DNA of 20,019 nt from a virus, in the IMG/VR virus record IMGVR_UViG_3300005915_000173, positions 1 to 20,019 of that record, one strand, 5' to 3'. This document shows, one piece after another, positions 1,824 through 20,019 of this stretch. The position numbers and the translations under genes are program-made. The notes under the pieces were generated by a model that worked only from the letters and a program-made list of their open reading frames with translations, made no database searches and was not told the DNA's origin. How positions within the stretch are numbered: the stretch's first letter is position 1; each line of letters starts with the position of its first letter.

Positions 1824-1839
1824 AATTCACACCAGCCTT

Positions 1840-2586
1840 TCATGTTGTATATAAATTCCCGTCCTTAGGCGCAAAGAAATCATTTAATTTTTTGTCTCCA
1901 CCACCAAAGATTCTTTCCCACATTGTCGGCTCTTTACCCATTTTTATACCTAACTGATCGAGTAAAGGAGCAGCTTCATTGACCTTGTCAGAGGATATTA
2001 ACCCTAACGCCACTTGGAATTGTTGAGCCCTCATTGGATCATCAATAAATAATTCAGGGTTACTTAGTATTAGCTGCATTTGCTCACTGCCGATAACACC
2101 TTTAATCTTTGAAAATTCCTCCGGAGATAAACCTGCTGCCTGAGCTGCTTGCTCTAACTCCACCTGACCAAAGGTCTTAACATTCGCTCCCTGACCAAAT
2201 AATTGGCCTGCTAGATTCTGCGTTGAACCCTGATCTAATAGCCCCTGCATCCCCATATTTAAGCCAGTATTCTGTGATTGAAACTGCCTTGATTTAGCTG
2301 CTTCCGATGCCTGGAACGCTTGGTCCAGTAGCGATGCGTTAATGTTTCCGGCTAGAGTTGATTCCTGCCTGGTTAAATCCTGTAAGGCATTACCATAAGC
2401 CTTTTGCCCTAAACCGCCAAAAGAGATACCTCTACCAGCCAAATGTTCGGTTAATCTTGGCATTGACTCTTCAAAGAACTCATTCCTAAGTGGGGTTACC
2501 GCAGTATTAAAAGCCTCACTTGCAAAAGCCTTTTGCTGTGGATTTAATTGCTGGTTAGTTTGCATAGTATTTTGTAATCCGTTCAT
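1840..2586 (-). CDS. Putative virion-associated protein, Gln-rich, unknown family
   Basis: A 248-residue protein rich in Gln, Asn and Ala, mainly helical, starting MNGLQNTMQT. It has no Cys, no membrane segment and no catalytic motif. The N-terminal 130 residues contain repeated amphipathic helices with AEQ-type composition, as in small internal virion proteins next to podovirus nozzle genes. The C-terminal part is a short hydrophilic domain ending in KDGNLYTT. The SD site is excellent: AAGGAGG is encoded by the last codons of the nozzle gene, and the ATG follows the nozzle stop by only three bases, so the two are translationally linked. Function is inferred only from position (between nozzle and the Gly-Ala-rich ejection candidate). 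Confidence 0.72.
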   Translation of the reverse strand: MNGLQNTMQTNQQLNPQQKAFASEAFNTAVTPLRNEFFEESMPRLTEHLAGRGISFGGLGQKAYGNALQDLTRQESTLAGNINASLLDQAFQASEAAKSRQFQSQNTGLNMGMQGLLDQGSTQNLAGQLFGQGANVKTFGQVELEQAAQAAGLSPEEFSKIKGVIGSEQMQLILSNPELFIDDPMRAQQFQVALGLISSDKVNEAAPLLDQLGIKMGKEPTMWERIFGGGDKKLNDFFAPKDGNLYTT

Positions 2587-2589
2587 TAA

Positions 2590-4167
2590 TTAATTCCTCC
2601 TTATTGGTCTATATGTGAAACCTACACTGAATATCCGTGTAAATTGGTTAGCATTTAAGTTAGATATCTCCGCCTTAAACCAGTTACCCTTAAGCCTAAC
2701 ATTGTACTCACTAGATTTAATTGTAGAACCCGAGCCAATTACCGCCCCGATTAGGGTAGCTCCATCCACATAAATCTCTGAGCTGTCGCTAGCAGTAAAT
2801 GTCTTTACTTCCCCATCGCCATCATTAGGTAATAGCTTCCCTCTCTTATAAGCATTAAAGATTAAAGACATACTCCAACCTTCGGTTTCACCATAGAAAA
2901 AAGCTTTTCTGAACGACTTATATACAGCATCATCATCCGGTGCGAACCAGGCCACATTAGCCCTTGATTCAATAGCCTCGCCATCATCAGCATGGAGACT
3001 ATCATCTAATGTTGTATATAACTCACCCGTTTGACCTCTTATCCCATAAAGAATCTGAGTGGTTCCAAGTTGAGAAACAGCCCAGTAATCAAACTTTAGA
3101 CCGGTAAATTCACCATAAAAGGGCTGGTTAAGTTCGCTAGTTTTTGATTTTAAGAATTTCTTGGTATCTGCAAAATAGATAATATCGTGATAACCTTGCG
3201 CATTTGTTAGCGATCTAAAGGATAATATATACTTATCTTTATAACTAACACCCGAAGCTTTAGCTAAGTTATCACTAGTTAACCTTGAGTCAATATCATC
3301 TTCAATATACTCACTTACAACCGGGCTTCCAGAACCACCCAAAGTATACTCACCAGATGAAAATGTTACTGCCGGAGATATCACCCTTACCTTTTTATCT
3401 GAACTCAAATACATAATCCCAATCCGTGTCCGGACAACTGTTCTTGGTGATGTCGTCCCTTGAGATGCATCTGTTTTCAATATTAACCAAGTAGTTGTGG
3501 GGCTAGCATCAGCTGCGTTAGGTAGGACGTAAACGGCCTCTTCTTTAAAGATAAATAAAGCATCACCCCAGACAGCAAACCCTTTTATATACCCATCCAA
3601 GCCAGGGGCTACAACAATTGAATTAGTACCAAGATTCCAATCAGTAAAAGCTAATGCTTCAGTGAAATACAGGGTATCTCTACCATCTGTTGTGAAAAGC
3701 CTATTCTTATGAAGTATAAGATAAGTTGAGCTGTCCGGAGATGTAACAGTTGATGCTGCCGGCACCGAACCAGACATCTTTATTTCAACTATTGAGTTTG
3801 AGCCATTAGCTGCGTACATGGCACGATTAGCACCGTAACCTGCTTGCTCAAAATACACCTCTAGGCTTGGTGTCATGGACAATCCAAAAGCTACCCACGC
3901 TGAAGAGTAATAATAATAATCAGTCCCTTGCGCCGTTATCGGATATCTAGAATTAGCATTGTTCTCATAAACTCCAAGTCCGAAACATCTGCCTGTAGTT
4001 GGTGGATCACTCACTTTAGCCGAGCCACCTCTCTCTGTTAAGCCACCATTATCCTCATACAAATAATTGGTGTTAAGTGACAATTGGCCAGGGATAGCGT
4101 TAAGTTTATTCTTATTCTTATTCACGCCTAAAAATTTGTTAATAGTAACCGATGGAAAATTACTCAT
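2590..4167 (-). CDS. Tail nozzle / stabilisation protein, beta-propeller type
   Basis: This 525-residue protein resembles the hexameric nozzle proteins that close short tails (P22 gp10 or T7 gp12 role). Seen directly: an N-terminus with a GGLTERGG motif (residues 41-48) after an asparagine-rich stretch, blade-like beta repeats with the pattern hydrophobic-x-hydrophobic plus aromatic (for example FAVWGDALFIFKEEAVYVL, residues 197-215, and YKDKYILSF further on), and a C-terminus ending in an aromatic strand (VGFTYRPIRRN). No membrane or enzyme motif is present. The ATG overlaps the adaptor stop by four bases (ATGA), so it is coupled to the adaptor, its expected structural partner beneath the portal. 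A fibre-attachment role is likely. The family call rests on pattern and context, not on a search. Confidence 0.78.
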   Translation of the reverse strand: MSNFPSVTINKFLGVNKNKNKLNAIPGQLSLNTNYLYEDNGGLTERGGSAKVSDPPTTGRCFGLGVYENNANSRYPITAQGTDYYYYSSAWVAFGLSMTPSLEVYFEQAGYGANRAMYAANGSNSIVEIKMSGSVPAASTVTSPDSSTYLILHKNRLFTTDGRDTLYFTEALAFTDWNLGTNSIVVAPGLDGYIKGFAVWGDALFIFKEEAVYVLPNAADASPTTTWLILKTDASQGTTSPRTVVRTRIGIMYLSSDKKVRVISPAVTFSSGEYTLGGSGSPVVSEYIEDDIDSRLTSDNLAKASGVSYKDKYILSFRSLTNAQGYHDIIYFADTKKFLKSKTSELNQPFYGEFTGLKFDYWAVSQLGTTQILYGIRGQTGELYTTLDDSLHADDGEAIESRANVAWFAPDDDAVYKSFRKAFFYGETEGWSMSLIFNAYKRGKLLPNDGDGEVKTFTASDSSEIYVDGATLIGAVIGSGSTIKSSEYNVRLKGNWFKAEISNLNANQFTRIFSVGFTYRPIRRN

Positions 4168-4877
4168 AAGCTATATAGAACCTCATTTTGGTTATAGCCC
4201 GTACTTCCGGCATATATATTAGGGTCCAGAACCATCCGATTGTCATAATTAGGCTCCATAAACGTCTTTAATTCAGCCTTTTCAGCATTTGCTAATTGAA
4301 AATATTTCTGCATATTGTTGTCATCTTCATCACCCTGATAGAAGAACTGGGCTGCATAATAAGCAATAAGGAGGTCATAATCAGTAACTAAATCGCAGGC
4401 TGTAGCATCTAGAGTTAGGCTGGTTGGTACATTTATACCATATACCTTTATTGCTCCGGTTGCTGACCTATTGAAGTATTTATTCACAACTATTTCAGTG
4501 CTTCTTATTGCATAAAAGCCGGGATCGCCGGTATTAGAACTATTAAAGAAATTCGTTTGACCCTCAATATCAATTAATCTTGTCAGCGATACCGGCTGTA
4601 ATTCTCTATAACTACCACCTGATCCTTGATAATAAACTCCTTCAGGGACTATCAGGGTTGTTGGATACGTTGCAGTATTTTGACCACTAACTATATCCAC
4701 CGAAGCTACGGTACTATTCCTTAATTCTCTTGGCCTTACTTCCCTAGCTATCTTAGATATAGCCTTGTTTATATAAGTGTTTAATAAGGTTGATGATGGA
4801 TCAGTAGATGTTGTGCTAACCCCTGATCTAATAAACCCTTCGGTCAAAGTTCTTAAAACCGCTAATGTTGATCCCAT
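4164..4877 (-). CDS. Head-tail adaptor (tail tubular A-like / P22 gp4-like)
   Basis: A 237-residue protein with the layout of podovirus adaptors. The N-terminal helix resembles those that insert into the portal (TLTEGFIRSG), then comes LLNTYINKAISKIAREV (residues 31-47), matching the usual pattern of a helix that begins the adaptor fold. A beta-rich centre follows (residues 55-150, ending in a strand that pairs with the next subunit in known adaptors), then a C-terminal helix pair with DYDLLIAYYAAQFFYQGDED and LANAEKAELKTFM. It lies directly upstream of, and overlaps, the nozzle gene. An AAGG-type SD site precedes ATG 4877. Length is close to that of known adaptors (about 170-240). The fold was judged by eye; a structure prediction would settle it. 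Confidence 0.75.
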   Translation of the reverse strand: MGSTLAVLRTLTEGFIRSGVSTTSTDPSSTLLNTYINKAISKIAREVRPRELRNSTVASVDIVSGQNTATYPTTLIVPEGVYYQGSGGSYRELQPVSLTRLIDIEGQTNFFNSSNTGDPGFYAIRSTEIVVNKYFNRSATGAIKVYGINVPTSLTLDATACDLVTDYDLLIAYYAAQFFYQGDEDDNNMQKYFQLANAEKAELKTFMEPNYDNRMVLDPNIYAGSTGYNQNEVLYSL

Positions 4878-6740: not shown

Positions 6741-7844
6741 TCAGGTGCTTACCTTTATAGGAGTTTCTACATCAAATAGGATAAATGATAGCAATTTATC
6801 AGTCTCTTTTTTAATATTATAGTTCTTGAAGCAGTCTTTGCTCAATAAACCTTCCCGAACCAAATGATAACTATCTACCAACTCCCTAAGCTTGTCTATA
6901 AATTCCGGCCTATCATAAAGCCATATCTTACCCGCCGTATTTCTATAAGGAACCACATTACTAGCCAAAAGAGGAACATCAATTGAACTCCATTCTATCC
7001 ATTTTAGGTTAGATTTACATCTATTGAACTCGGTATCTCTAAGCGGGGCTAGGGCAATGTCAGCTTCGGTGTTATATAGTGATTGAGGGTATTTTAGGAT
7101 ATGCCAGGCTACCTGGACAAACTGGAATCGCTTATCCGCCTTGAACCAATCAGGTAAATATCCGCCACTATACCAAGTGAAATAGATATCCTTATGGGTA
7201 GTCACATATAACCTTAATCTGGAATATATGGTCTTGAAATCCTCGTCATGGCCACCACCACCGACATAAACTATATTAGTCCTACCCTTAAGCTTCTTTT
7301 TCTTCTTGTCTATTTTCCAGGTATGGGGGCTTATACAGTTTGGTGCTACATGGACATTTAAATTGAATTTCAACATAGAATCAGCTAGATAGCGACAAGA
7401 ACAAATCACGCCATCGCTTATGCTCGCATGTTCCGCTGCTATTGTATTATGTTCTCTAAACTCAGCTACATTCCTGTTTGATGGAGTTACATCGCCTATA
7501 GAATCGTCGCATTCCATGAATATCTTAGTGGTCGGATACTGTTCATGATACATCTTAACCAGCGCCAAACCCTCTTTATTTTGTAACTTTTGGATTATCA
7601 GAACATCAAAGAACTGAAATGCGCCCTCTAGTGTACTCTGGATTTGTCTTGCATATTCAGTGGCATCCAAGCATATCTTTGACCATGGTATCTCCTTAAA
7701 AGGATCAAAAAATGGCTCAACATGCAAGGCATACTTAGTGTCATATTCCTTAGCTATTGTTTGCGCATAATTCTCTATCCGCCAATAAATAGGCCCTAGA
7801 TTGAGGGTTGGCAAATAACAGATGGCATACCTTTGTCCTTTCAA
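6741..7844 (-). CDS. Glycosyltransferase, GT-B fold, GT4-like
   Basis: A 367-residue protein. The frame opens with TTG at 7844; AAAGGAC sits 6-7 bases upstream and no in-frame ATG is nearby, so TTG is the likely start. Two Rossmann-like halves are visible: an acceptor half (residues 1-175, with VLIIQKLQ and a DGVICSCRYLAD segment) and a donor half starting at NIVYVGGGGHDEDF (190-203). The nucleotide-sugar site pattern is IALAPLRDTEFNRCKSNLKW (263-282), followed by PLLAS, the usual GT4 arrangement in phage and capsule clusters. It closes the sugar cassette, a few bases after the methyltransferase. Likely transfers a sugar onto a glycan or protein; donor and acceptor are unknown. A hydrophilic tail ends at residue 367. 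Confidence 0.87.
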   Translation of the reverse strand: MKGQRYAICYLPTLNLGPIYWRIENYAQTIAKEYDTKYALHVEPFFDPFKEIPWSKICLDATEYARQIQSTLEGAFQFFDVLIIQKLQNKEGLALVKMYHEQYPTTKIFMECDDSIGDVTPSNRNVAEFREHNTIAAEHASISDGVICSCRYLADSMLKFNLNVHVAPNCISPHTWKIDKKKKKLKGRTNIVYVGGGGHDEDFKTIYSRLRLYVTTHKDIYFTWYSGGYLPDWFKADKRFQFVQVAWHILKYPQSLYNTEADIALAPLRDTEFNRCKSNLKWIEWSSIDVPLLASNVVPYRNTAGKIWLYDRPEFIDKLRELVDSYHLVREGLLSKDCFKNYNIKKETDKLLSFILFDVETPIKVST

Positions 7845-7847
7845 TTA

Positions 7848-8495
7848 TTAGTCCTTTCGTTTAACTGCCACAAGCGCCAGCCATTGAGCCGCATTAGGGT
7901 TTAGGTTGTTTGTTGCACAGTACTCCTCTATATACGGGAGATTCCAGAACTGGACATCACCTTTTTTGAATACAGAATGAAATAAGGTGTTCACTATCTC
8001 GATACTGTAGTTCATCTGATGATAATCCCCTACCTTCTTACACATCTCTGATGCCGGATGCGGGATTGTAACGATATAAGTACCGCCAGGCGATAATACT
8101 CGATACGCTTCCTTTATTGCTACTAATGGATCATATAAATGCTCTAACACCTCACAACAAATGACAACCCCAAAAGATTCATCTTTAAACCGACTCAAAT
8201 CCTCGGCTTCCCCAACTTCAGCAAACACACCCCTCTTTTTTGCCTTTTCAACCAACTCCACAACCACGTCTAACCCCTTAACATAACAGCCACGTTCAGC
8301 CATTAAACGGATAGCTATGGTTCCACCATTACATCCGATATCAAGCACCCGTGATCCCTTTGGTGTTTTCTGGACTACGAAATCAACTCTATGAAAATCA
8401 GAGCTGTATCTCGTACCTTTACCTTTAACAACACCATCTGATCTATAGTTATCCACATGCGCTTTTATAGCTTCATCTTTACTCTCATATCGCAT
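7848..8495 (-). CDS. Class I SAM-dependent methyltransferase
   Basis: A 215-residue protein with the standard order of class I motifs: motif I VLDIGCNGG (50-58) binding SAM, the acidic end of strand 2 at GLDVV (74-78), the strand-4 motif FGVVICCEVLEHL (108-120), and LSPGGTYIVTIP (134-145). This is the Methyltransf_11/UbiE-COQ3-like pattern used for small molecules and sugars, not for DNA: there is no DPPY-type motif. The ATG directly abuts the stop of the membrane-protein gene (TAAATG). Between glycosyltransferases, it most likely methylates a sugar or polysaccharide end, altering a glycan made by the cassette; the substrate is inferred. Confidence 0.87.
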   Translation of the reverse strand: MRYESKDEAIKAHVDNYRSDGVVKGKGTRYSSDFHRVDFVVQKTPKGSRVLDIGCNGGTIAIRLMAERGCYVKGLDVVVELVEKAKKRGVFAEVGEAEDLSRFKDESFGVVICCEVLEHLYDPLVAIKEAYRVLSPGGTYIVTIPHPASEMCKKVGDYHQMNYSIEIVNTLFHSVFKKGDVQFWNLPYIEEYCATNNLNPNAAQWLALVAVKRKD

Positions 8496-8963
8496 TTAAT
8501 TAAGTTTTCTCCATATGCCATCAGCCAAGAAACCAACCGAAAAAGCTAACAAGTAAGATATCTGAACATCTTTTATGCAGGCCTTAATTAACATGGTGCC
8601 GCCAATAAGGATTAATGGGTAATTGACTACATAAGAGATTAACCTTAATACTCTTTGTTTCTCTACGATTTCCATTGCATAATGATCTTTAAGTCTTTGC
8701 TTGGTCCATAAAATCAAAAACCCTAATGATCCGGCCGTTAGTAAACTCGCATATGGTTCTTTGCTCAATATCGCTATAATCCCCAGAATTCCTATAGTAA
8801 GAATAATACCCAGCAAATTATAGAAGTAATTATCTCTCCTTACCTCTAGCCGTTTTTGCTCAAGCAAGGTTTCCCTGATCTGATTTTTAACATATTCAGC
8901 ATCTTGACCATCTAAGCACGCTTCATTTTCATTTACCTTTTCATTTACCTTTTCTTCACCCAT
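8496..8963 (-). CDS. Four-helix integral membrane protein, unknown function
   Basis: A 155-residue protein with a charged N-terminal region (residues 1-47, including a KVNEKVNENE repeat and a helix rich in Glu, Lys and Arg). Four hydrophobic segments follow at about 49-66, 71-87, 107-128 and 134-150, the second and third joined by a basic-acidic loop (TKQRLKDHYAMEIVEKQR). No enzyme motif is visible. Candidates are a holin, a membrane anchor or flippase-like partner for the glycosyltransferases, or a superinfection-exclusion factor. Its place inside the sugar cassette favours a glycan-related role, but the length and small helical hairpins are also holin-like. SD AAAGGG precedes the ATG. Confidence 0.75.
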   Translation of the reverse strand: MGEEKVNEKVNENEACLDGQDAEYVKNQIRETLLEQKRLEVRRDNYFYNLLGIILTIGILGIIAILSKEPYASLLTAGSLGFLILWTKQRLKDHYAMEIVEKQRVLRLISYVVNYPLILIGGTMLIKACIKDVQISYLLAFSVGFLADGIWRKLN

Positions 8964-8984
8964 AACTTTTCATCCCTTTCTTTT

Positions 8985-9767
8985 TTACCTATCTTGGATC
9001 TCTTTTTTTTCTAGGACGCCAAGATCAATACCGAACTTCTTATAATACTCCTTTTTCAAAGCCCAAGCTTTACTCTTGTTTCTTACTGTATCACCCTCTG
9101 TCTTGGTCATCATAAGATTCGAGCATATGCCAAATTTCTTTCCTTCCCTTAATAATTTTAACAAGAAAAACTCGTATAAATCAGTATCTTTAGAAACTTC
9201 TAAGTACGGCGATTCTAACGCCACCTTTCTCCTATATGCTACCGTTGGATGCGCAATAGGGCATTTGGTATTACCGTCCCAGATATGTGCAGGTTGATCC
9301 CAGATATGGTTAGGATTAATTGAGGATCTACACCTAACGCCCGTACTAAACACATCAAAGTCAGGCTTTTCAGTAAAGAATTTCACAATAGACTCGCCTC
9401 TGTCAGGTTCGTATTCATCAGCATCGCAAACCGCTATGATATCGCCATCGGCTATCTTATTTCCTATGTTCCTGGCAACGGCAGCTCCCCTTCTAGTTAA
9501 GAAACTAACTACTATTATCTCATCTTTATATGTCTTTAATATATTAGCAGTATTATCAGTAGAGCTATCATTAATGACTATTATCTGACCCGGAACGGTT
9601 TGTTTTAATAAACTGTTTATTGTTGAAGCTATATTTACTTGGCCGTTATAGACCGGCAATACATATGAGACACTCAATACTATCTCTGCAATGGGTTCGT
9701 CATTTATTGGGTCAGGCTGTTCAATCTCTTCTAATATATCCTCAACATTAATTTTCTCTTCATCCAT
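8985..9767 (-). CDS. Glycosyltransferase family 2 (GT-A fold)
   Basis: A 260-residue protein. After an acidic N-terminal extension (1-28), the GT2 fold begins at SVSYVLPVYNGQ (32-43). Next come IIVINDSSTDNT (62-73), the RRGAAVARNIG nucleotide-binding loop (92-102) and the metal-binding DXD motif as DAD (115-117) within AVCDADEYEPDRGE. These are the canonical GT2 elements for UDP- or dTDP-sugar use. No membrane segment, so the enzyme is probably cytoplasmic. It follows the two-domain transferase with a one-base gap, with an AGGAG SD inside that gene's end. Substrate unknown; the tail after 220 is basic and may bind the acceptor. Confidence 0.88.
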   Translation of the reverse strand: MDEEKINVEDILEEIEQPDPINDEPIAEIVLSVSYVLPVYNGQVNIASTINSLLKQTVPGQIIVINDSSTDNTANILKTYKDEIIVVSFLTRRGAAVARNIGNKIADGDIIAVCDADEYEPDRGESIVKFFTEKPDFDVFSTGVRCRSSINPNHIWDQPAHIWDGNTKCPIAHPTVAYRRKVALESPYLEVSKDTDLYEFFLLKLLREGKKFGICSNLMMTKTEGDTVRNKSKAWALKKEYYKKFGIDLGVLEKKEIQDR

Positions 9768-9768
9768 A

Positions 9769-11436
9769 TTACTTAAAACTCCTAACTATCTCATAGATGC
9801 GTTTCTTATATTTACTAAGACTCATTAACCGCTGATAATAATCTTTAACCTTTATAGCGTCAGGGTAATTATTCGTATTTACCATGGTATATATCTTATC
9901 CATTAACCAACCCTTATCCTCTCCATAATTATTCAATGCCTCAAATGGTATTTTCTCTGCAAACTTAAACTCCGGATCAGGGACCGATACCAACGCCTTC
10001 CTGCCACAGGCCATGAACTGGATCGGTAGATGCGGAAACCCATCGTGACGAGTAAATCTTAAGTACATATTACAGCTGTTAATGAAGGTGGGCATATCCT
10101 CGCTCTTAACTTTACCTTCAAATATTAAGTTTTTTGACCTGAATTTAACTGAATCATCTTTCTTTAGAAACGCCCTCTTATCATCACCAAAGAACACGAA
10201 ATCGATATCGGGCATGGACCTAGCGATATCTAATATGAATGGTAAATGGGATAACCCGTCAGCACCGTCAATGGCGTTCATGTTAGGTGTATTAGAAAAG
10301 TAGACTGCCACCCTCTTCTTTTTTGGTGTCTCTTTCAAGGGGACAAACCTCTCAATGTCGTAAATAGGGCTATATAATAACTCTGCTTTTATACCTAAGC
10401 CGGCCAACTCGTCTACCATTCTGGGCGAGTTTGCCAGTAACACTGTCTTTGACATCTTAAATATATTCCTTATTTCTTCAACCTCTGCTATTGAATGCAT
10501 GTTTCTTAGCTGCCAAACATCAGTGCCGATGAAATGGTAAATACTCTTCTTGTAGCCGGCACTGTAATGATTTGTTAGTGCCTCTACCGGCGCATTAAAG
10601 CAGCCAATGAAATAGGTGGCCTTCCAATTGGTATAACAAAGGTTCGATGGTACTATTTGGCGTCTACTATTAGGGATTGGACCAATATAATCGGCATCTA
10701 ACATTAATGCCCGCTGCCTGGCCTGAAGTGGAGCTGCAAATGTCGTTACTACCAGTTCCCGATCAGGGATTCCCTGCTTTTCTCTAAATATCTTTGATTT
10801 TTCTGATAGACTTAAACCTTTTGTGCCTGATATTGAAGCTTCAGTTGGGTAGGTTGTACTAAAGATGAACTCATTTATATATTTACCCTTAAACCCTGCC
10901 TTTGCCACTCGATAGAATAATGACCAATCTTGAAAGAACTCCTCATCCTCTCTAAAACCCTTAACAAATTCAAATACGTTTCTTCTTATAGGTGACATGG
11001 TACAAACATAATTCATTGTGGATAATGCGTCTTTGTCAAAAGGTTGAGAAAAGAACTCGTATTTTTGGTCAAACCTATAATTACCATAAACAAACATGAT
11101 GTCCGGATTATCATCCAGCTGGTCCATGCACTCTGTTATCATCCCCGGATATAGTTGGCAATCGCCATCAATGAAAAATAAAATATCATTATTTCCAGCC
11201 CTAGCACCAACATTTCGCGCATGTGCAGCCCCCTTATTCTCCGGTAATACTATTAAATCAAAATCAACTATATTTGAAAGGGAGTGTAAGTAATTTATGT
11301 CTTCAATATTTTCCTCTTTACCATCCACAACAATTACAACGGTATAATCTTTAGTGTCTTGATCTGCAATCGAGTTTAGGAGTTTATCTATTGTGTCTTT
11401 GTTCTTGAAATATGAAATTACGATGTCAAATGTCAT
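9769..11436 (-). CDS. Two-domain glycosyltransferase: GT2 fused to GT4-like domain
   Basis: I favour ATG 11436 (555 residues), since MTFDIVISYF is the normal beginning of a GT2 domain and GGGGG lies 11 bases upstream; ATG 11457 would add seven residues but has no SD. In the shorter numbering, the GT2 half (about 1-225) has the ENKGAAHARNVG loop (66-77), the metal-binding DGD (90-92) and the acceptor-side motif EEFFQDWSLFYR (165-176). The C-terminal half (about 245-500) is GT-B/GT4-like: FIGTDVWQLR (302-311), VFFGDD, and HDGFPHLPIQFMACGRKALV (464-483), the sugar-phosphate site. Two transferase activities in one chain suggest sequential sugar addition. It is the first gene after the cassette promoter. 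Confidence 0.87.
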   Translation of the reverse strand: MTFDIVISYFKNKDTIDKLLNSIADQDTKDYTVVIVVDGKEENIEDINYLHSLSNIVDFDLIVLPENKGAAHARNVGARAGNNDILFFIDGDCQLYPGMITECMDQLDDNPDIMFVYGNYRFDQKYEFFSQPFDKDALSTMNYVCTMSPIRRNVFEFVKGFREDEEFFQDWSLFYRVAKAGFKGKYINEFIFSTTYPTEASISGTKGLSLSEKSKIFREKQGIPDRELVVTTFAAPLQARQRALMLDADYIGPIPNSRRQIVPSNLCYTNWKATYFIGCFNAPVEALTNHYSAGYKKSIYHFIGTDVWQLRNMHSIAEVEEIRNIFKMSKTVLLANSPRMVDELAGLGIKAELLYSPIYDIERFVPLKETPKKKRVAVYFSNTPNMNAIDGADGLSHLPFILDIARSMPDIDFVFFGDDKRAFLKKDDSVKFRSKNLIFEGKVKSEDMPTFINSCNMYLRFTRHDGFPHLPIQFMACGRKALVSVPDPEFKFAEKIPFEALNNYGEDKGWLMDKIYTMVNTNNYPDAIKVKDYYQRLMSLSKYKKRIYEIVRSFK

Positions 11437-11489
11437 TAATGTTAGTACCCCCATCATATTTTGATTAACTAATCACTTTATAACATATT

Positions 11490-11517
11490 ATTATACACCG
11501 ATTTATTTTTATAACAA
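11490..11517 (-). promoter_or_regulatory. Promoter of the glycosyltransferase cassette
   Basis: On the minus strand, -35 TTGTTA (11512-11517) and a perfect -10 TATAAT (11490-11495) are separated by 16 bases. The predicted start is near 11483, giving a leader of roughly 25-45 bases for the two-domain glycosyltransferase. The -35 overlaps the T-run of the capsid-gene terminator, so termination and re-initiation are packed back to back. Confidence 0.6.
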
Positions 11518-11551
11518 AAAGGCGGACAAGTGTGTGTGTCACTCATCCGCC
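11514..11551 (-). terminator. Rho-independent terminator after the capsid gene
   Basis: On the minus strand GGCGGA pairs with TCCGCC and, inside a TG/TG internal loop, AGTG pairs with CACT, closing a 7-base ACACACA loop. It is followed immediately by TTTTT. It lies 27 bases past the capsid stop. There is no T-run on the plus strand side, so it serves leftward transcription. Confidence 0.85.
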
Positions 11552-11578
11552 TCAATTGTTATTTAACTGCTAGATATC

Positions 11579-12679
11579 TTATGCAGTTACTTCAGTTGAT
11601 AGTATCCAAAGTCCGGCTGACTTATTCAATACTTTACCTACTGCTGTAATAGCAAAAGACGCAATTCTCTTTTTGTTACATGGGTCAGATACAGTTTGTG
11701 ATCCAGGCTCTTTAATGAAGAACTCAAACCCTTTTCTGCCTCCACCCATACCTGTTACTTCAGATACACCGTATGCCTCATCACCAAATAGTAATGAACA
11801 GAACACAGCTCCGGAACCGGTTGATAACGTATCACCGGATACAGGGAACCTGTAACCAAGAGTTGTGGATGTAAATCTGATTCCTGATAGGATATCGACT
11901 TCATCAGTCATCATGGCTATCTTATCCGGAGATGTCGGCGCAAACCAACCTTTATACCCCGCACTGGTTTTCACCTGGAATATAACAGTTGGATATGTGA
12001 TACATGCATATCGTCCATCAGGTAGTGGATCAATATTCTTGCCTCTAAGCACATTTACACCAGCTTGGAATGTCTTAACTGTGGCTCCGGTTTTCGCAAC
12101 AGCGACAACAGTTGAAGATTGGGCAATCCTGGTCTTATTATGGTACATCGGGAACCTATCTCCACTAGTAGATGCATCATGCGACCAGAATTTTGCTGTG
12201 ATACTAGATGAATTTAATGAACCACCGTCAATAGCAAGATTGTTCATATTAACACCACTCGCATTAGCCGTATCAGCCACACACATACCAATATCATTCC
12301 TGATTAAAACGTCCAGGGTCTTAGTTGCTGCCTGTTCTACTTTATTAGCAACTTTAGCGAATGGCGCAATTTGAGTTGTTTTTAGGAACCTGGAAAATTG
12401 GACATAGCCATTCCTCTCATGCAAAGTAGCGCTAACAACAGTTGAAGATTGATACATTTGTTGTGCTGTAAATTCGTCAGTGTCATCGGCATATAAATAA
12501 CCAATTGCATTTAGGCGTGTAAATTCAATAGAACTACCACCATTTTGAGGAATGTCCTCTCTAGTTGGTGCTAACCTATAAAAAGCTGTCTTTGGCTCAA
12601 ACGCCTTTAAAATTCGTTTACTATAAACTGTTTTGACCGCATCGGTCATTGAAGCATGTGATGATTGTTGATCTGTCAT
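11579..12679 (-). CDS. Major capsid protein, N4 gp56-like HK97 fold
   Basis: A 366-residue protein placed right after the scaffold gene and followed by a strong terminator, as expected for the most abundant virion protein. The start, VYSKRILKAFEPKTAFYRLA followed by PQNGGSSIEFTR (residues 44-55), matches the N4 gp56-type capsid pattern (helix, then a GxxIxFxR strand). The segment PDGRYACITYPTVIFQV also matches the P-domain signature seen in that group. It is rich in Thr, Ser and Ala with few Cys. AAGGAG precedes the ATG. No protease gene is visible, so a prohead protease is either outside the window or absent. The fold call is by pattern only. Confidence 0.85.
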   Translation of the reverse strand: MTDQQSSHASMTDAVKTVYSKRILKAFEPKTAFYRLAPTREDIPQNGGSSIEFTRLNAIGYLYADDTDEFTAQQMYQSSTVVSATLHERNGYVQFSRFLKTTQIAPFAKVANKVEQAATKTLDVLIRNDIGMCVADTANASGVNMNNLAIDGGSLNSSSITAKFWSHDASTSGDRFPMYHNKTRIAQSSTVVAVAKTGATVKTFQAGVNVLRGKNIDPLPDGRYACITYPTVIFQVKTSAGYKGWFAPTSPDKIAMMTDEVDILSGIRFTSTTLGYRFPVSGDTLSTGSGAVFCSLLFGDEAYGVSEVTGMGGGRKGFEFFIKEPGSQTVSDPCNKKRIASFAITAVGKVLNKSAGLWILSTEVTA

Positions 12680-12706
12680 CTTTACTTCACTCTCCTTATA
12701 TGAAAT

Positions 12707-13603
12707 TTAGGCGATAGGTAAACCCTCCACCTTAATTGCATATTCTAGGTATTCATCTGCTGACATATCGTCAATTGACTTTCGTGGCTTTTTTGATGCA
12801 GTACTACTTGCAGCCGTATTTGTTGTCGCTGCCCTTTTAGACCGTTCAAGTGACCCCTTATTACTCACCTTTGCCGAGTTTTCTTGCTTCAATATATCAA
12901 GTGTTTTTGCCATTACCCATCCTTGAGTTCGGATAGTTTTTGCTACACGTTCATCATTAGTAGCTCCAGCTCGTGAAAATTCGGCTTGCAGCTCCGGATT
13001 AACAACATTGAATATCTCTGGATGAGTTTTCAAATTCTCATAGAATGTTGAATTCTCTTTCTCGATATTCGCCAATTGCGATTCGGCTGCCTCTCTCCGT
13101 TTACTTTCCCTTAGCTCAATCTCTGATGAAATTAGCTTCCTAACCACTTCCCGCTCTGCTTCCGGGTAATCGTCTAAAAGAGCATCTTCAGCTTCCCTCT
13201 CTTTGGCCTTAGATATGTTTGTTACCTTGCCATCAAGTGTCTCTAAACTCTTTCTCACCTGATATAGTTCATTGTTCTGCCTAGAAATATACTTGTTCTT
13301 TTCCTCTAACAGCGCAATTAAATCTTCTCTTTCCTTTTTCTTGTAGTATGCGCTCTCTGTATCATCTTTCTCTGCTTCCTTTTCTACTTCAGTATTTTTT
13401 CCTGTTTCAGCCTTTTCGCTAACTTCATTAGAACTCTCACTTGGAGCTTGTTCTTCTTTGGTCTCGAGTGCTTCCTCGTGCTCGGTTTCTCCGGCACTTT
13501 CAGTATTACCATTAGTAGACGCTTCAACCTGATCCAGGTACTCAGCGATTTCACTTTCGGTCTTACCGTCCAGTTCGGATTCCGACAATAATTTTATAGA
13601 CAT
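12707..13603 (-). CDS. Capsid scaffolding protein
   Basis: A 298-residue, very acidic and helical protein between portal-side genes and the capsid gene, the usual place of a scaffold. Residues 1-85 are Glu/Ser/Thr-rich and probably disordered. A coiled coil covers about 86-190 (heptad-like Leu/Ile/Val with many Lys and Glu). The linker 243-275 is basic and Ser/Thr/Ala-rich. The C-terminus ends in a short helix SIDDMSADEYLEYAI, typical of scaffold C-termini that touch the capsid shell. Its ATG follows the preceding stop directly (TAGATG) with AAGGAG upstream. The composition resembles scaffolds of N4-like and related podoviruses. Confidence 0.8.
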   Translation of the reverse strand: MSIKLLSESELDGKTESEIAEYLDQVEASTNGNTESAGETEHEEALETKEEQAPSESSNEVSEKAETGKNTEVEKEAEKDDTESAYYKKKEREDLIALLEEKNKYISRQNNELYQVRKSLETLDGKVTNISKAKEREAEDALLDDYPEAEREVVRKLISSEIELRESKRREAAESQLANIEKENSTFYENLKTHPEIFNVVNPELQAEFSRAGATNDERVAKTIRTQGWVMAKTLDILKQENSAKVSNKGSLERSKRAATTNTAASSTASKKPRKSIDDMSADEYLEYAIKVEGLPIA

Positions 13604-14140
13604 CTATTCTCCTTCATCCACTTTTTCAGATATTTTTCTATCTTCTTCTTTTCTAAGTATATCAATATAACTTTGATACCCCTTTATTGGATCAGCTTGT
13701 AACAGTATCCCAGCAAACTTACCATCAGCAACTTCAACTTGGAATGAACCTGTTTTGTATTTCGCCGCAACATCTGCCCTGCTTACCTGGGATCCGTCAT
13801 AGAATCCTTGCCTGCCTAGTAAATCATTAACATAAATACCGTCAATCTTTCTCCCATTCAGATTATTAGCAGCTTTTTCCATATGCTCAAGATTGACACC
13901 GTACTTCTTGCAGCATTTGTATTTACATCTAGCTATATGAGAAGCCACTTTTTTCTGGTAAACAACATCCTTAAATTTTAGCTTGGAATTAACAAGGTAC
14001 TGCACCTTCTTAACTAATGTTACTGTCTCATTTATCTTAGGAAATGCTTCCTCTTTGAATAAATGCCTTGGTGGCTGTCTCCTTGGAGCCGGAGCCCTCT
14101 TAACCGGTTCATTACTAATTATATTTGTTTCATTATCCAT
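13604..14140 (-). CDS. Unknown small basic head-module protein with a CKYKCC motif
   Basis: A 178-residue protein starting MDNETNIISN with a Pro/Arg-rich N-terminal segment (KRAPAPRRQPPR, residues 14-25). Mixed helix follows, and a cysteine cluster CKYKCC at 72-77 ahead of a KKYGVNLEHMEKA helix could bind a metal or be redox-active. The last 40 residues are acidic and lysine-rich. I recognise no family. It is cotranscribed between portal and scaffold genes, so a head-assembly or minor capsid role is possible. AAGGAGG lies 10 bases upstream of the ATG, so expression is likely strong. Confidence 0.7.
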   Translation of the reverse strand: MDNETNIISNEPVKRAPAPRRQPPRHLFKEEAFPKINETVTLVKKVQYLVNSKLKFKDVVYQKKVASHIARCKYKCCKKYGVNLEHMEKAANNLNGRKIDGIYVNDLLGRQGFYDGSQVSRADVAAKYKTGSFQVEVADGKFAGILLQADPIKGYQSYIDILRKEEDRKISEKVDEGE

Positions 14141-14155
14141 GCTTATTTATCCTCC

Positions 14156-14344
14156 TTAAAATGTGTAGTCCCTAATTATATCTTCGCCAAATATCTCTAT
14201 AGTCTTAATCTCAATTGCCATTTTCTCTATTAATTGAGGGTTCCTGTCCTCGCTAACTAGATTTTCTCTTAAGATCGCTAGACGCTCACCTATAAATATC
14301 TCGCATGCTGCCTCAAATGTTTGCCTATCCAGCTTTTTTGTCAT
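14156..14344 (-). CDS. Small helical protein overlapping the portal gene, unknown
   Basis: A 62-residue protein, MTKKLDRQTF onward, with alternating hydrophobic and charged helices and one Cys. Its ATG lies inside the 3' end of the portal gene, giving a 20-base overlap in another frame, with GGGGG in the portal coding sequence as SD. Such short genes after portal in podoviruses are often uncharacterised. A chaperone or portal-associated role is a guess. Confidence 0.6.
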   Translation of the reverse strand: MTKKLDRQTFEAACEIFIGERLAILRENLVSEDRNPQLIEKMAIEIKTIEIFGEDIIRDYTF

Positions 14345-16301
14345 TTTTACCCCCTGCCACCTCTAAACTGGCTTCAGCTACGAGTTTCTCCATCTCGATT
14401 CTACCCTTATTATTGTCCTCTGCTATCTGGCCTTCCACATCAGTCTTTACCTTCTGGCCATATTCCTCTTTAGCTTTGGCCTCTGCTTCCGTCTGTGCCT
14501 TGGCCTGCTCTTGCTGAACTTTCATCACCTCTTCCTCATCTAACCAAAGATCAGTTGCATCATCACTTATCCCGTAACACTTCAACACCTTTTCACCCAT
14601 AACCCGCCAGTCAATTCTCCTTGCTATCGGCGGTACTTGAATCGCATATTGAGTGAATTGGGTATACCCTTGCTGGTGTGCAACCTCGTTTGCCAACTCC
14701 ATTGTTCCTAATATATTGTACTTAACATTGACTACCAAATCCTTCATTGACATATTAGGGTCAATCCCTAACTTCTGTACCTCTTCTTCACTATAGATAT
14801 CTAGTAAATCTTCAGTGTCTTTGAATACTAAGTTCCGCTCATATAGCATCTCCAGAAATGGCCGGAGCTCGTCATTACTAACTTGCGCTATTAAATCGTT
14901 TAACGGTAAATCGTTTTGTTGGATAATTGCCATTGTTCCTGCTGCTGTCTTTGGTATTAATCTACTATCCGACGTCCCTTGCTGGACCGGAGCTAAACTC
15001 CATAACTGGTCTAGGTCTTGCCCGATTAGGACACTATCTTGCATCTTTACATTAGATAGGTTTGGATTGATTATCGGTGTTATCCCGTTACTGCCAACAC
15101 CAGTGATCCTTCCCATGGGTCGCCATACCCCGTCCCATCTAACACTCTTCGATTTATCTTCATACATCATTGGAAAATTGCTGTAAGTTCTCGCATCAGT
15201 TGATTGGGAACGACTTGCATTTAACTCATATAAAAGAGGCAATCCCAAAATTACCTTGGATAATCCGTAAAACGTGTTGGCTAGCTTTATATACCTACCA
15301 ACTATGAACGGACGAACGTACCTTTTATGCCGGAACGGCGTTGGCTCTTTTCTGATTACCACATCACCATTAGCGATTGTTACGATCACTTCTTCGGGTA
15401 CGCCATCTCCATCAAGATCGTACCTTCCGTAACACTCGTCAATCTCTACATAACCACTCTTTTTTGTGGCTTTTAGCTTGCGCTGAAACACCGCTTCCGA
15501 TTTACTTGATAAACCCAGAATAGATGCATATTCCTTTTGAGCGTCAGTCATATTTCCAGTATCACCTGGTTTTATTAGATCTAGGTTTTCGTATACCCCT
15601 ACCGTAGTTGTCTTTTCTTCTATTATTGGATTGCCTTTTTTGTCCGCACTCTCTATTTCTTCAGTAACTGTCCTTTTCTCAAGTGCTAGCAAATCCTCTA
15701 GCCGTTCCTTTGTGAAATGGATACAGGCTTTGCTCTTATTGATATCTGATATACTTGCGTCGGTATAGAAGTCTTGGATCAATAGTGGCCTGAAATACGT
15801 GTTCTTTCTTATTATCAGTTCTGGTTCCTCATCCTCGAAATAACTAAACTCACGCTCCTCATACTCTTGAGGTATCTTGGCAATTGATGTCCCATAGATA
15901 CATCGGTTCTTGTTGTGTTCTTTGAAATTGGACTTGAAATCGATCTCCGGTAACTGGTGACCGAAAATATATTCGTTGAGTAAATCTAGGATATTCTTCT
16001 TTTGTGGTTCTTCTTTTTTAGATTCAATCCTACCCCATGGATCTCGGTTGAATAGTATCCGGTTGATCCGAGATTCAATACCCTCAACCTTCATAAGTGT
16101 CACCGGTACATTGACCTTGGCCCTGCCCTCATAAGTGCGACTTAAACCCTCATCAACTTTATACGCCTTTAGCGCCTGATCCCATAATTCCTCTAGCCCT
16201 TCCCGCTGTGTAGCGTAGGTCGTCTTTAGTGCCATGAAATAATCTATGATTTCTTTATCTTGGTTCAAGTGTCGGGTTTCTTCTTTTATGCTGTCATCCA
16301 T
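14325..16301 (-). CDS. Portal protein
   Basis: A 658-residue protein directly downstream of terL. Seen directly: an acidic-basic N-terminus, a LEELWDQALKAY segment (37-47), the RINRILFNRDPWGRIE helix-loop (78-93) typical of podovirus portals, a DLDGDG segment (295-300), GRYIKLANTFYGLSKVI (335-351, the YG-containing core found in many portals), and a C-terminal Lys/Glu/Ala-rich coiled coil (about 590-650) forming the barrel-like end. The role is to form the dodecameric DNA-entry ring and bind the terminase and adaptor. SD AAGGAAG is 7 bases before the ATG. Length is comparable to P22-like portals. Confidence 0.93.
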   Translation of the reverse strand: MDDSIKEETRHLNQDKEIIDYFMALKTTYATQREGLEELWDQALKAYKVDEGLSRTYEGRAKVNVPVTLMKVEGIESRINRILFNRDPWGRIESKKEEPQKKNILDLLNEYIFGHQLPEIDFKSNFKEHNKNRCIYGTSIAKIPQEYEEREFSYFEDEEPELIIRKNTYFRPLLIQDFYTDASISDINKSKACIHFTKERLEDLLALEKRTVTEEIESADKKGNPIIEEKTTTVGVYENLDLIKPGDTGNMTDAQKEYASILGLSSKSEAVFQRKLKATKKSGYVEIDECYGRYDLDGDGVPEEVIVTIANGDVVIRKEPTPFRHKRYVRPFIVGRYIKLANTFYGLSKVILGLPLLYELNASRSQSTDARTYSNFPMMYEDKSKSVRWDGVWRPMGRITGVGSNGITPIINPNLSNVKMQDSVLIGQDLDQLWSLAPVQQGTSDSRLIPKTAAGTMAIIQQNDLPLNDLIAQVSNDELRPFLEMLYERNLVFKDTEDLLDIYSEEEVQKLGIDPNMSMKDLVVNVKYNILGTMELANEVAHQQGYTQFTQYAIQVPPIARRIDWRVMGEKVLKCYGISDDATDLWLDEEEVMKVQQEQAKAQTEAEAKAKEEYGQKVKTDVEGQIAEDNNKGRIEMEKLVAEASLEVAGGKNDKKAG

Positions 16302-17849: not shown

Positions 17850-18014
17850 TTAACGGGCGTGTTTTCGGCCGTCGTCAGGTAGCCAGGCTCTGATTTTTGG
17901 TGGGATTTTCTTCTTGGCTTCAGCCGATTCTGAGAGCCATCTCTTTTTCTCTTTTTCAATTAGTTTCTTTGATTCTTTTCTGTGTTTTCTATAGGCGTCT
18001 AATAGTGTGGTCAT
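17850..18014 (-). CDS. Basic 54-residue protein between terS and terL
   Basis: ATG at 18014 overlaps the terS stop by one base (TAATG) and the frame runs 54 codons to a TAA at 17850-17852, 19 bases before the terL ATG. The product starts MTTLLDAYRK, has a Lys/Arg-rich helix (residues 9-25, KHRKESKKLIEKEKKRW), then a PPKIRAWLPDDG segment. It is very basic and soluble. Coupling to terS, and the lack of an SD before terL, support that it is translated. No family recognised; a packaging accessory or DNA-binding role is only suggested by position and charge. Confidence 0.6.
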   Translation of the reverse strand: MTTLLDAYRKHRKESKKLIEKEKKRWLSESAEAKKKIPPKIRAWLPDDGRKHAR

Positions 18015-18496
18015 TAGCTTTCCCCCAATTCCTCACGTTTGGTTTTTGGTTTCTTCTTTAGTTCCCAGCCTAGTTTAGATACAAGCCCCTCTATATTATT
18101 AAGAAGTTCTGCCCGGTTTGGATCCGGAGTGTCATCCACAGGTGCATCCGGGTTATCTTTCCAATAGAGGTTATTTTTTAGGTAGAATATGAGGCCGGTA
18201 ACATGCCGTTGCGTTACGAGTCGGTCAATCAGGTTCGATTCTATTAATTGTCGCGCGCCGTTAACAATTTGTCGGTATTCAGCCTTTTTAGAATAAGCCC
18301 ACAGTGTTTGATATTCAATTCCGAGGTAGACAGCTAATCCCTGCCAGGTAACGGGTTCGGTGGCATATTCCAATATTTCAAAATCTTTACCGCTTTTACG
18401 ATGAGTCAAAATAACCCCTCTTTTAGCTCTTGAAGCCAAGTATTTATCAATATTGATTTTCAATTCCAGAGGTGTATATTTACAGGGGTTGGCCAT
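18014..18496 (-). CDS. terS: Terminase small subunit (gp3-like DNA packaging protein)
   Basis: A 160-residue protein. An N-terminal segment KYTPLELKINIDKYLASR (6-23) fits the start of P22 gp3-like small terminases. The region TWQGLAVYLGIEYQTLWAYS (49-68) is the helix-turn-helix DNA-binding part. The helix pair ending IFYLKNNLYWKDN (103-115) matches the family hallmark LKN..gW.D. The C-terminal 30 residues are basic, ready to contact DNA or TerL. ATG 18496 is the first codon and agrees with family N-termini. It has no SD, and a -10 element lies 7 bases upstream, so the mRNA may be leaderless (see promoter). Recognises the packaging site and recruits TerL. Confidence 0.87.
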   Translation of the reverse strand: MANPCKYTPLELKINIDKYLASRAKRGVILTHRKSGKDFEILEYATEPVTWQGLAVYLGIEYQTLWAYSKKAEYRQIVNGARQLIESNLIDRLVTQRHVTGLIFYLKNNLYWKDNPDAPVDDTPDPNRAELLNNIEGLVSKLGWELKKKPKTKREELGES

Positions 18497-18503
18497 AAGG
18501 TTT

Positions 18504-18509
18504 ATTATA
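18504..18509 (-). promoter_or_regulatory. Leftward late promoter at terS (extended -10)
   Basis: TGaTATAAT on the minus strand is a perfect extended -10; a -35 is weak. Its predicted transcription start, about 18497, coincides with the A of the terS ATG (18496) within a base or two, so the mRNA would carry no 5' untranslated region. No SD lies between. The whole late operon could start here. Confidence 0.55.
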
Positions 18510-18554
18510 TCACAATCATTTAAGTTAACACATTTGAATGATTATGCGACATGT

Positions 18555-18614
18555 GGGGGGTGAGCGCCATGGGGGGTAAGATAAATTCAAATACAATTTC
18601 TATTTAGGGGTAAG
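18555..18614 (+). promoter_or_regulatory. Three G-run repeats, candidate protein-binding sites
   Basis: GGGGGGTGAG (18555-18564), GGGGGGTAAG (18571-18580, 16 bases start to start) and GGGGTAAG (18607-18614) share GGGGTRAG; a looser GGGGTGTT follows at about 18643. They lie between the leftward late promoter and the rightward promoter, a natural place for a switch operator or a packaging-recognition (cosB- or pac-like) site. Function is inferred. Confidence 0.45.
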
Positions 18615-18648
18615 TTTTCTAAAAGAAAAATTATAACTTATAGGGGTG

Positions 18649-18677
18649 TTTACAAGGAAAAAAAAGTATGGTAAAAT
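18649..18677 (+). promoter_or_regulatory. Rightward sigma-70-type promoter before the hairpin array
   Basis: TTTACA (18649-18654), 17-base spacer, TAAAAT (18672-18677), with the extended -10 TGg directly before it. Five of six bases match consensus in each hexamer and spacing is ideal. Predicted start near 18684, within the first ACTAGT palindrome. No gene follows for at least 1.3 kb, so it would transcribe the structured array. Confidence 0.6.
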
Positions 18678-18693
18678 CTCCTACTAGTAAATA

Positions 18694-18720
18694 GTAACCC
18701 GATCCACTGTATAGGGTTAC
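18694..18720 (+). repeat. Stem-loop A (GTAACCC/GGGTTAC), variant loop
   Basis: GTAACCC at 18694-18700 pairs perfectly with GGGTTAC at 18714-18720 around a 13-base loop. It shares stem and 3' flank (GAGGTA) with copies B and C at 18862-18921, but the loop differs (GATCCACTGTATA here). Its tail CGAGG (18720-18724) can alternatively pair with CCTCG (18731-18735) of the next hairpin. Confidence 0.75.
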
Positions 18721-18730
18721 GAGGTACTAT

Positions 18731-18759
18731 CCTCGCTAATTTGCTACTACCTAGCGAGG
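18731..18759 (+). repeat. Stem-loop E (CCTCGCTA/TAGCGAGG)
   Basis: An 8-bp perfect stem (18731-18738 with 18752-18759) and a 13-base loop. It has no T-run downstream, so it is not a standard terminator. Formation competes with the pairing of the preceding CGAGG tail, giving an attenuator-like geometry. Confidence 0.7.
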
Positions 18760-18788
18760 AAGATCATGTAACTTTTCTTACTCGTGTA

Positions 18789-18858
18789 ATAAATTTTTTT
18801 TCACTTCGTTAAAATTTATAAGAACTAGTGACTAGTGACTAGTAACTAGTACTAGTAA
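18789..18858. repeat. 70-bp direct repeat, copy R1
   Basis: Identical over 70 bases to 19076-19145, offset 287. Each copy begins with a hairpin ATAAATTTT / AAAATTTAT (9 bp, 13-base loop; 18789-18797 and 18811-18819) and ends in five ACTAGT palindromes. Perfect identity in non-coding DNA implies recent duplication or selection or conversion. Confidence 0.92.
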
Positions 18859-18925
18859 AGAGTAACCCGACCAACGGAGAGGGTTACGAGGAAGAGTAAC
18901 CCGACCAACGGAGAGGGTTACGAGG
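18858..18925. repeat. 34-bp tandem duplication carrying stem-loops B and C
   Basis: Two identical 34-base units, 18858-18891 and 18892-18925, each holding AGTAACCCGA, a 12-base loop and AGGGTTACGAGG. The stem is 7 bp; CC and GG inside the loop could add two pairs around AAC. No spacer lies between the units, so this is not a CRISPR. The loop carries ACGGA, resembling a CsrA-type site, but this is speculative. Confidence 0.9.
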
Positions 18926-18955
18926 TATTCTCTTTTCTTTTTTGTTACTACGTGT

Positions 18956-18988
18956 ATTAAAAATAATATATATTATATATTTTTTAAT
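18956..18988. repeat. AT-only near-palindrome
   Basis: ATTAAAAA (18956-18963) pairs with TTTTTAAT (18981-18988); the 17 bases between are all A or T. A likely easily melted segment, as expected at an origin or in a cruciform, lying between stem-loops C and D. Confidence 0.7.
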
Positions 18989-19009
18989 CAAAGAAGCGAG
19001 TAATTCCAC

Positions 19010-19038
19010 GAGCCGTCCGGCGAGAGGATGAACGGCTC
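19010..19038 (+). repeat. Stem-loop D (GAGCCGT/ACGGCTC)
   Basis: GAGCCGT (19010-19016) pairs with ACGGCTC (19032-19038) around a 15-base purine-rich loop (CCGGCGAGAGGATGA). GC-rich in an AT-rich region, so likely a maintained structure. No T-run follows. Confidence 0.7.
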
Positions 19039-19049
19039 TAGCCCTAGTT

Positions 19050-19077
19050 ACTAGTACTAGTAACTAGTACTAGTGAT
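19050..19077. repeat. 28-bp direct repeat, left copy
   Basis: Identical to 19132-19159. It is made of four ACTAGT palindromes plus GAT. The two copies bracket the second 70-bp repeat, overlapping its ends, which suggests stepwise growth by unequal recombination. Confidence 0.88.
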
Positions 19078-19145
19078 AAATTTTTTTTCACTTCGTTAAA
19101 ATTTATAAGAACTAGTGACTAGTGACTAGTAACTAGTACTAGTAA
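19076..19145. repeat. 70-bp direct repeat, copy R2
   Basis: Second copy of the 70-base unit described at 18789-18858, with the same 9-bp hairpin (19076-19084 with 19098-19106). It is followed by two further ACTAGT palindromes (19145, 19151). Confidence 0.92.
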
Positions 19146-19662
19146 CTAGTACTAGTGATCCAAAAAAAAGAGAAATAAAAAGACTTATAAAGGCCATTAA
19201 ACAAAGAATAAAAGCCATTAAAAGAAGAAACACAAGTACTACTCCCCTTAATAAATATACGTATCACACTCGAGCATTGGGTTCCCATTCGGGAATGTAT
19301 GGGGGCTAGCCATAAACTTAATACCTATAATAATAGACACAAATAAACGAGGTTAATAAGGGGTATTTAAACTATTTAATAGAAAAATACAATAGAGGAT
19401 TTAGGTATATTAAGGGTAAAATAATAGGTTTTAGGCACGTAAGGTACGTATTAGATAAATTAAATACCTGACTAAGGCCAGAACGAGGCTAGGTATATGA
19501 TATAGGTAATATATTACTAGCTCAAGTAGACCTATTGACGTTATACTACCTATATGAGCTAATTATATATATTACTAGAGTAACATAGGCTAAGGTGGTT
19601 TAAACACTCTATTTTAGATAATTAATTAGATAAGGGATAAGTAACTCTCTTTATATGAGATA

Positions 19663-19687
19663 TAGCTTGCTAATCTAATTCAAGCTA
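19663..19687. repeat. Stem-loop TAGCTTG/CAAGCTA
   Basis: A perfect 7-bp stem (19663-19669 with 19681-19687) and an 11-base AT-rich loop; same architecture as the array further left. No T-run follows on either strand. Confidence 0.55.
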
Positions 19688-19823
19688 CTTGATTTAGTTA
19701 GGTATGAGCTATTAACAAGGGTATGTTGATACACTTCGTCATTAATCAATCCCACGCATTGGCTGTTTAACTAGTAAATAATGAGTAATTAAGGCTATGT
19801 GAGTATATTCAAAGAATTAAAAT

Positions 19824-19853
19824 AAAAAAAAATCAGTGGCTATTCTAATAGCC
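19824..19853 (-). terminator. Candidate leftward terminator
   Basis: On the minus strand GGCTAT-TAGA-ATAGCC forms a 6-bp stem with a tetraloop; ACTGA follows, then nine T. The five-base gap before the T-run makes it weaker than the capsid terminator. It would stop leftward transcripts entering from beyond the right edge and shield the control region. Confidence 0.4.
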
Positions 19854-20019
19854 TTAGCAGTTATTTAATAGGGAGTAAAATATACCAGTAGAAATTGATA
19901 CGTTTAGAGGTATATTATTATGATTTAATTTATAGGTGGGTATACGGCTATTAACGAGGTAATTAATAATAACTTGAGAGCTCACATATGTATTTATATA
20001 GATATGAGGGGTCTCTTAC

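Follow-up and report, generated by a model that had tools for sequence, protein, structure and literature searches.

A repeat array of hairpins and ACTAGT palindromes upstream of terS in an uncultured virus of bacteria: a candidate transcribed control or origin-like region

Introduction

What is the role of a dense array of ACTAGT palindromes and hairpins that lies next to the late operon of a bacterial virus? The array was found in IMG/VR record IMGVR_UViG_3300005915_000173, a 20,019-base sequence of an uncultured virus of bacteria, classed as linear, which often denotes a fragment. The whole of this record was analyzed and is called the window here. No known family fits the array fully. The favored reading, which is given a probability of about 0.35, is that the array is a block of repeats that is transcribed and works in cis as an origin-type or control site, at the point where the late operon meets a long conserved non-coding stretch. 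The region probably changes fast and serves for control or the start of replication, and is less likely to be a machine of a new kind.

Gene setting of the array

All the large genes of the window (terS, terL, portal, MCP and the tail-side genes) are transcribed leftward, and the late operon runs left from terS. The terS gene (18014-18496, minus strand) encodes a P22 gp3-like small terminase (phrog_606, E 1.4e-13; PF16677 GP3_package, E 2e-10). The initial annotation had placed the array directly behind terS. Since the gene is on the minus strand with its start codon at 18496, the array is instead upstream, 187 bp from the start codon. The stretch from 18497 to the contig end at 20019 has no ORF of 65 or more amino acids and its G+C content falls to 0.28-0.34. 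With the contig ending here, the early genes and any initiator would lie outside the window. No end repeats were seen in the record.

The nearest relative is L024 (also L068, L107 and L108; contig IMGVR_UViG_3300035698_019684), with identities of 65% for TerL, 64% for portal, 78% for MCP and 51% for TerS. The GC skew turns at the array junction in both the window and L024, a feature that gene orientation alone may produce. In L024, the ORF-free stretch at the junction leads to an oppositely oriented gene set.

Elsewhere in the window, at 6741-11457, at least two glycosyltransferase-like proteins and a methyltransferase are encoded between the MCP and the tail-side genes, an arrangement that is syntenic in L024. 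A 4.6-kb contig from another sample (3300025669), L067, is 99.98% identical over its positions 1-4603 to positions 10336-14937 of the window. It is this virus as recovered in another data set, and does not extend to the array.

Structure of the array

The array contains 17 ACTAGT hexamers within 474 bp (18683-19156), arranged in clusters of 1, 5, 4 and 7. The single first hexamer is at 18683-18688, the cluster of five at 18824-18856 (steps of 7, 7, 7 and 6), the cluster of four at 19050-19074 (steps of 6, 7 and 6) and the cluster of seven at 19111-19156 (steps of 7, 7, 7, 6, 7 and 6). The whole window has 20 copies against 5.3 expected from dinucleotide-preserving shuffles, and the largest number found per 474 bp in 200 such shuffles was three.

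Between the clusters are the hairpins, located by an inverted-repeat search. Hairpin A (18694-18720; GTAACCC / GGGTTAC, 7 bp stem, 13-nt loop) is followed by GAGG. Next come hairpin E (18730-18760; TCCTCGCTA / TAGCGAGGA) and hairpin R1 (18789-18819; ATAAATTTT / AAAATTTAT), each with a 9 bp stem and a 13-nt loop. Hairpins B (18862-18887) and C (18896-18921), with 7 bp stems and loops of 12, are contained in an exact 34-bp tandem duplication (18858-18925). These are followed by an AT palindrome (18956-18988; 8 bp, loop of 17) in the region 18939-18988, which has the lowest stability of any 50 bp in the 20-kb record. Hairpin D (19010-19038; GAGCCGT / ACGGCTC, 7 bp, 15-nt loop) and hairpin R2 (19076-19106; 9 bp, 13-nt loop, identical to R1) complete the set. 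A recount thus bears out the initial annotation, both in the 17 hexamers at 6-7-base steps alternating with eight inverted repeats and in the order and the stem and loop sizes of the repeats, the AT palindrome having the loop of 17.

The array is exceptional within the window by two measures. Perfect hairpins with stems of at least 7 bp number 11 in it, compared with a mean of 0.34 and a maximum of two in stretches of equal length elsewhere in the window. Its folding z-scores against shuffles are -7.8 for the plus strand and -9.0 for the minus strand, and when the window was tiled in 200-nt segments, the two lowest of the 100 tiles together covered most of the array. There is no ORF in it.

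A composite module is present in two copies that have diverged, with a spacing of 287 from R1 to R2. Each copy opens with ACTAGT-AAA(T/G)AGTAACCCGA-loop-GGGTTACGAGG, which forms hairpin A in the first copy and hairpins B and C in the second. A variable insert follows, consisting of E in the first copy and of the AT palindrome and D in the second, and then the R hairpin and a run of ACTAGT. A and B share their arms and flanks, and the differences between them are confined to the central ~12 positions, in the loop, a pattern that, judged from these two copies, hints that the arms are kept. R1 and R2 are each part of a 79-nt block whose copies are 96% identical; thus part of the growth of the array is recent.

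A promoter shared with the nearest relative

A conserved promoter region precedes the array (18631-18677, plus strand). It consists of a ATAACTTATA box, a -35 element TTTACA (18649-18654), a 17-nt spacer and an extended -10 element TATGGTAAAAT, a 10/12 match to the sigma-70 consensus with the TG. The core, TTTACA-17-TATGGTAAAAT (18649-18677, plus strand), points into the array and ends 6 nt ahead of the first ACTAGT, which places this hexamer at the predicted transcription start.

The promoter region is 77% identical to that of L024 over 62 bp (E 5.7e-7), in surroundings that are otherwise unalignable, and in L024 it is found in the same direction and at nearly equal distance from terS. With at most one mismatch allowed, AGTATGGTAAAAT has a single occurrence in the window and a single one in each L024 locus, and is absent from every other relative searched, leaving L024 as the sole relative that shares the promoter. 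A scan of viral contigs also matched the promoter pattern in an unrelated contig, present in two near-identical copies, which have neither a terminase nor other homology to the window; this match was attributed to chance. The array had been described as lying between opposing promoters. The conserved plus-strand promoter upholds one half of this description, but the other half is unsupported, as the minus-strand promoter-like site (18991-18963) is inside the array and is a 9/12 match, a level that shuffles also give.

What lies behind the promoter in L024 is different. The ACTAGT array is absent, and its place is taken by a hairpin block of 237 nt with a folding energy of -102 kcal/mol (z -6.65, and -8.2 in a second run) and three perfect hairpins where the background is 0.16. 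The block has no sequence or design in common with the array, being made of longer, G+C-rich hairpins as against stems of 7-9 bp and loops of 12-15 nt. It extends as far as the stop codon of a gene that converges on it, and among its hairpins there may be terminators of the converging gene or genes. Because of these terminator-like hairpins the analogy with L024 is not proof. A second strongly folding 200-nt tile in L024 (L107 8401-8600, z -5.5) lies within an ORF oriented opposite to terS.

In more distant relatives (L026, L029, L075, L078, L081, L090, L094 and L101; TerL identity to the window ~47-53% where matched), the ORF-free stretches upstream of terL or portal contain no comparable block, with at most one such hairpin each and z never below -3.4. 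In L071 (3415-4456), ~0.8 kb of sequence interrupts TerL near the Walker A motif, with an intein-like downstream junction, HNSGKTE, and the TerL of L094 is split at about the same site.

The absence of a homologous array from related phages had been set beforehand as refuting. The array itself indeed has no homolog in these phages, but a hairpin block does stand at the same position in L024. The window and L024 thus have in common the position, the promoter, a hairpin block and a long non-coding neighbor, whereas the sequence and shape of the hairpins differ. Such a combination argues against both a specific RNA acting in trans and a single ACTAGT-reading protein common to the clade, and favors an element that uses general properties or is loosely constrained. 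On this comparison the repeat block is best read as a recently duplicated, lineage-specific filling of the early/late junction region.

A transcribed control or origin-like region

The favored mechanism would work as follows. Host RNA polymerase would transcribe the array from about 18683, and the AT palindrome would melt, helped by the folding of hairpins in the RNA or in the displaced strand. Melting, and the R-loop that would form with it, could then make the region an origin-type or regulatory control site. The ACTAGT runs may be sites, specific to this lineage, for a protein whose gene lies beyond the fragment, or mere repeat units by which the block grew.

Among the roles first proposed, that of a transcribed structured element gains support, as judged from sequence, from the L024-conserved promoter that reads into the array and from the hairpin block that L024 has of its own. 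A replication origin is plausible from the promoter, the position at the junction and the presence of the least stable 50 bp in the array; against it, no DnaA box was found, at up to one mismatch, in 18497-20019, the array included. The closest parallel is with the T4 origins oriF and oriG, which depend on a promoter with an unwinding element downstream of it, share little homology and need no specific sequence at the unwinding element (PMC3016281). The array likewise has a promoter, predicted from its sequence, reading into an element with an A+T-rich site of low stability. This AT element is however farther from its promoter, ~260 bp as compared with ~100 bp in the minimal T4 origins (PMC3016281). 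Also unlike oriF and oriG, the promoter of the array is of the host type and the element is a dense array of palindromes and hairpins.

A broader version of this reading is that a hairpin-rich transcribed cis element recurs at the early/late junction of the clade, its promoter and position conserved and its sequence freely replaced, with selection acting on it as a hairpin array, for example as a sequence-independent origin or a transcription barrier. This broader version is considered distinctly unlikely. If the shared promoter and exchanged hairpin blocks did reflect a real rule, the control element would be one selected for structure and not for sequence. Homology searches would miss all elements so selected, and this clade has no cultured relatives. 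The junction is in any case a compact place to look for the origin and the early promoter of the uncultured clade.

Alternative explanations

The same promoter could also serve a lineage-specific non-coding RNA that starts at about 18683, consists of the ordered hairpins and acts in trans as a decoy, anti-defence or regulatory RNA. A conserved promoter that reads into the array, a very stable fold, the lack of an ORF and the occurrence of a hairpin block in L024 as well are what such an RNA would predict, but the L024 block shares neither the sequence nor the hairpin design, and both strands of the array fold equally well. Rfam gave no match at the gathering threshold, the weak hits being microRNA models on the palindromes, far below gathering, and the stems, identical among A, B and C and between R1 and R2, leave no compensatory changes to compare. 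An RNA of this type appears unlikely.

The cis-acting block favored above could, as another possibility, be a neutral or weakly selected satellite, in which ACTAGTN heptamers and hairpin duplications piled up by slippage in tolerant intergenic DNA. The exact 34-bp tandem duplication and the 79-nt repeat at 96% identity are signs of such growth. So is the distribution of the repeats. Neither the exact B-hairpin pattern nor a relaxed A/B/C pattern had a match in viral contigs, ACTAGTNACTAGTACTAGTNACTAGT had none in genome contigs, and comparison of the array with phage and plasmid records gave AT-rich or chance matches only. Aligning the MCP to genome contigs revealed no prophage or host. Blastn with pure heptamer queries found no match in phage records, though these queries were possibly masked. 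A pattern scan for three or more tandem ACTAGTN units, on the other hand, returned 20 stretches of viral contigs in varied, unrelated gene contexts. The strong novelty first implied for the design is weakened accordingly, as no homologous array was found in any related phage and runs of ACTAGTN turn up in numerous viral contigs that are unrelated. Direct repeats of heptamers, TAACTGA for instance, are known as a sporadic feature of the intergenic DNA of Beggiatoaceae and cyanobacteria (PMC4679880). These, like the ACTAGTN runs, are tandem head-to-tail heptamers in the intergenic DNA of unrelated genomes; the array differs in the sequence of the heptamer and in its ordered, distinct hairpins. 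Slippage would not be expected to give five different hairpin sequences with near-uniform stem and loop sizes, or to keep the arms and flanks of A and B while the central positions diverged, and the independent hairpin block behind the same promoter in L024 also speaks against it. A satellite origin likewise appears unlikely. If the array were only a satellite, it would be an example of repeats accumulating beside phage control regions.

The transcribed control or origin-like site is favored also over a purely protein-binding one. The ACTAGT clusters could be an operator or centromere-like array that binds a small dimeric protein of the ribbon-helix-helix type and thereby controls the promoter that ends at 18677. 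The contiguous 6-7-bp steps in runs of four, five and seven, with the first site at the predicted start, fit this. The run that most resembles the window is in L006 (7032-7205), with 11 ACTAGT in 174 bp and z -6.8. It is located at a divergent junction between packaging-side and oppositely oriented genes of an unrelated phage with another terminase type, and an 11/12 promoter match has its -10 element 7 nt ahead of the first unit. Another contig, L014 (4445-4503), has two runs of three ACTAGT, ~18-20 bp apart, between oppositely oriented ORFs. In the plasmid pSM19035, parS is bound by the omega protein and consists of runs of 7-10 contiguous 7-bp units that overlap promoters, with at least four units needed for function (PMC9499535). 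The array has runs of four, five and seven units, but the omega heptads follow one another without gaps as 7-bp repeats that are not palindromic, whereas here ACTAGT is palindromic, the steps are of 6 and 7 and hairpins are interleaved. No ParA or omega genes were seen in the window, which ends before the early region. The lack of an ACTAGT site in L024 despite the conserved promoter, and the hairpins, which an operator leaves unexplained, make this explanation distinctly unlikely.

A pac region, recognized by the adjacent P22-like small terminase, was another of the roles first proposed. The array is close to terS, its TerS is of the gp3-like family of headful packagers, and several other ACTAGT runs lie near terminase genes. 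The pac site of P22 is likewise near or in terS, but it is a 22-bp asymmetric sequence inside the gene (PMC9611059), and the array is repetitive and outside terS. In nine contigs with both an ACTAGT array and an identified terminase gene, the closeness of the two, striking at first sight, did not reach significance when compared with random positions in the same contigs (Fisher p 0.15 with ORF-free positions and 0.12 with any), and closeness to the terminase was thus not used as evidence for a packaging site. L024, with a TerS of 51% identity, does without the array, and a packaging site is quite improbable.

ACTAGT pairs 8 bp apart form the TrpR operator trpO, and heptamer arrays occur alongside the terminal repeats of T7-like phages; both were rejected, as no 8-bp-spaced pair exists among all the ACTAGT of the window, and the TerS is P22-like in a record without end repeats.

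The ORF-free neighbor

Beyond the array the AT-rich ORF-free stretch (19160-20019, plus strand) has a homologous, collinear and likewise ORF-free counterpart in L024 (L107 10032-10814). The alignment score was 183, compared with 102 +/- 12 for shuffles (z 8 on repeat), and in the other orientation the scores fell to chance level, so that the homology is in the expected orientation. In L024 an HNH-type gene and a second ORF sit between this stretch and the hairpin block. In the scan of viral contigs, L024 was the only match to the conserved block of the stretch. Rfam gave no match to the stretch, and covariation between the two sequences was no better than in column shuffles on either strand. 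In both viruses the strand directed away from terS has a slight folding advantage over shuffles (z -2.1 in the window and -1.6 in L024), compared with -0.6 and -0.1 for the opposite strands. The stretch is possibly a leader or a non-coding RNA region, and within the junction it is perhaps of more interest than the array.
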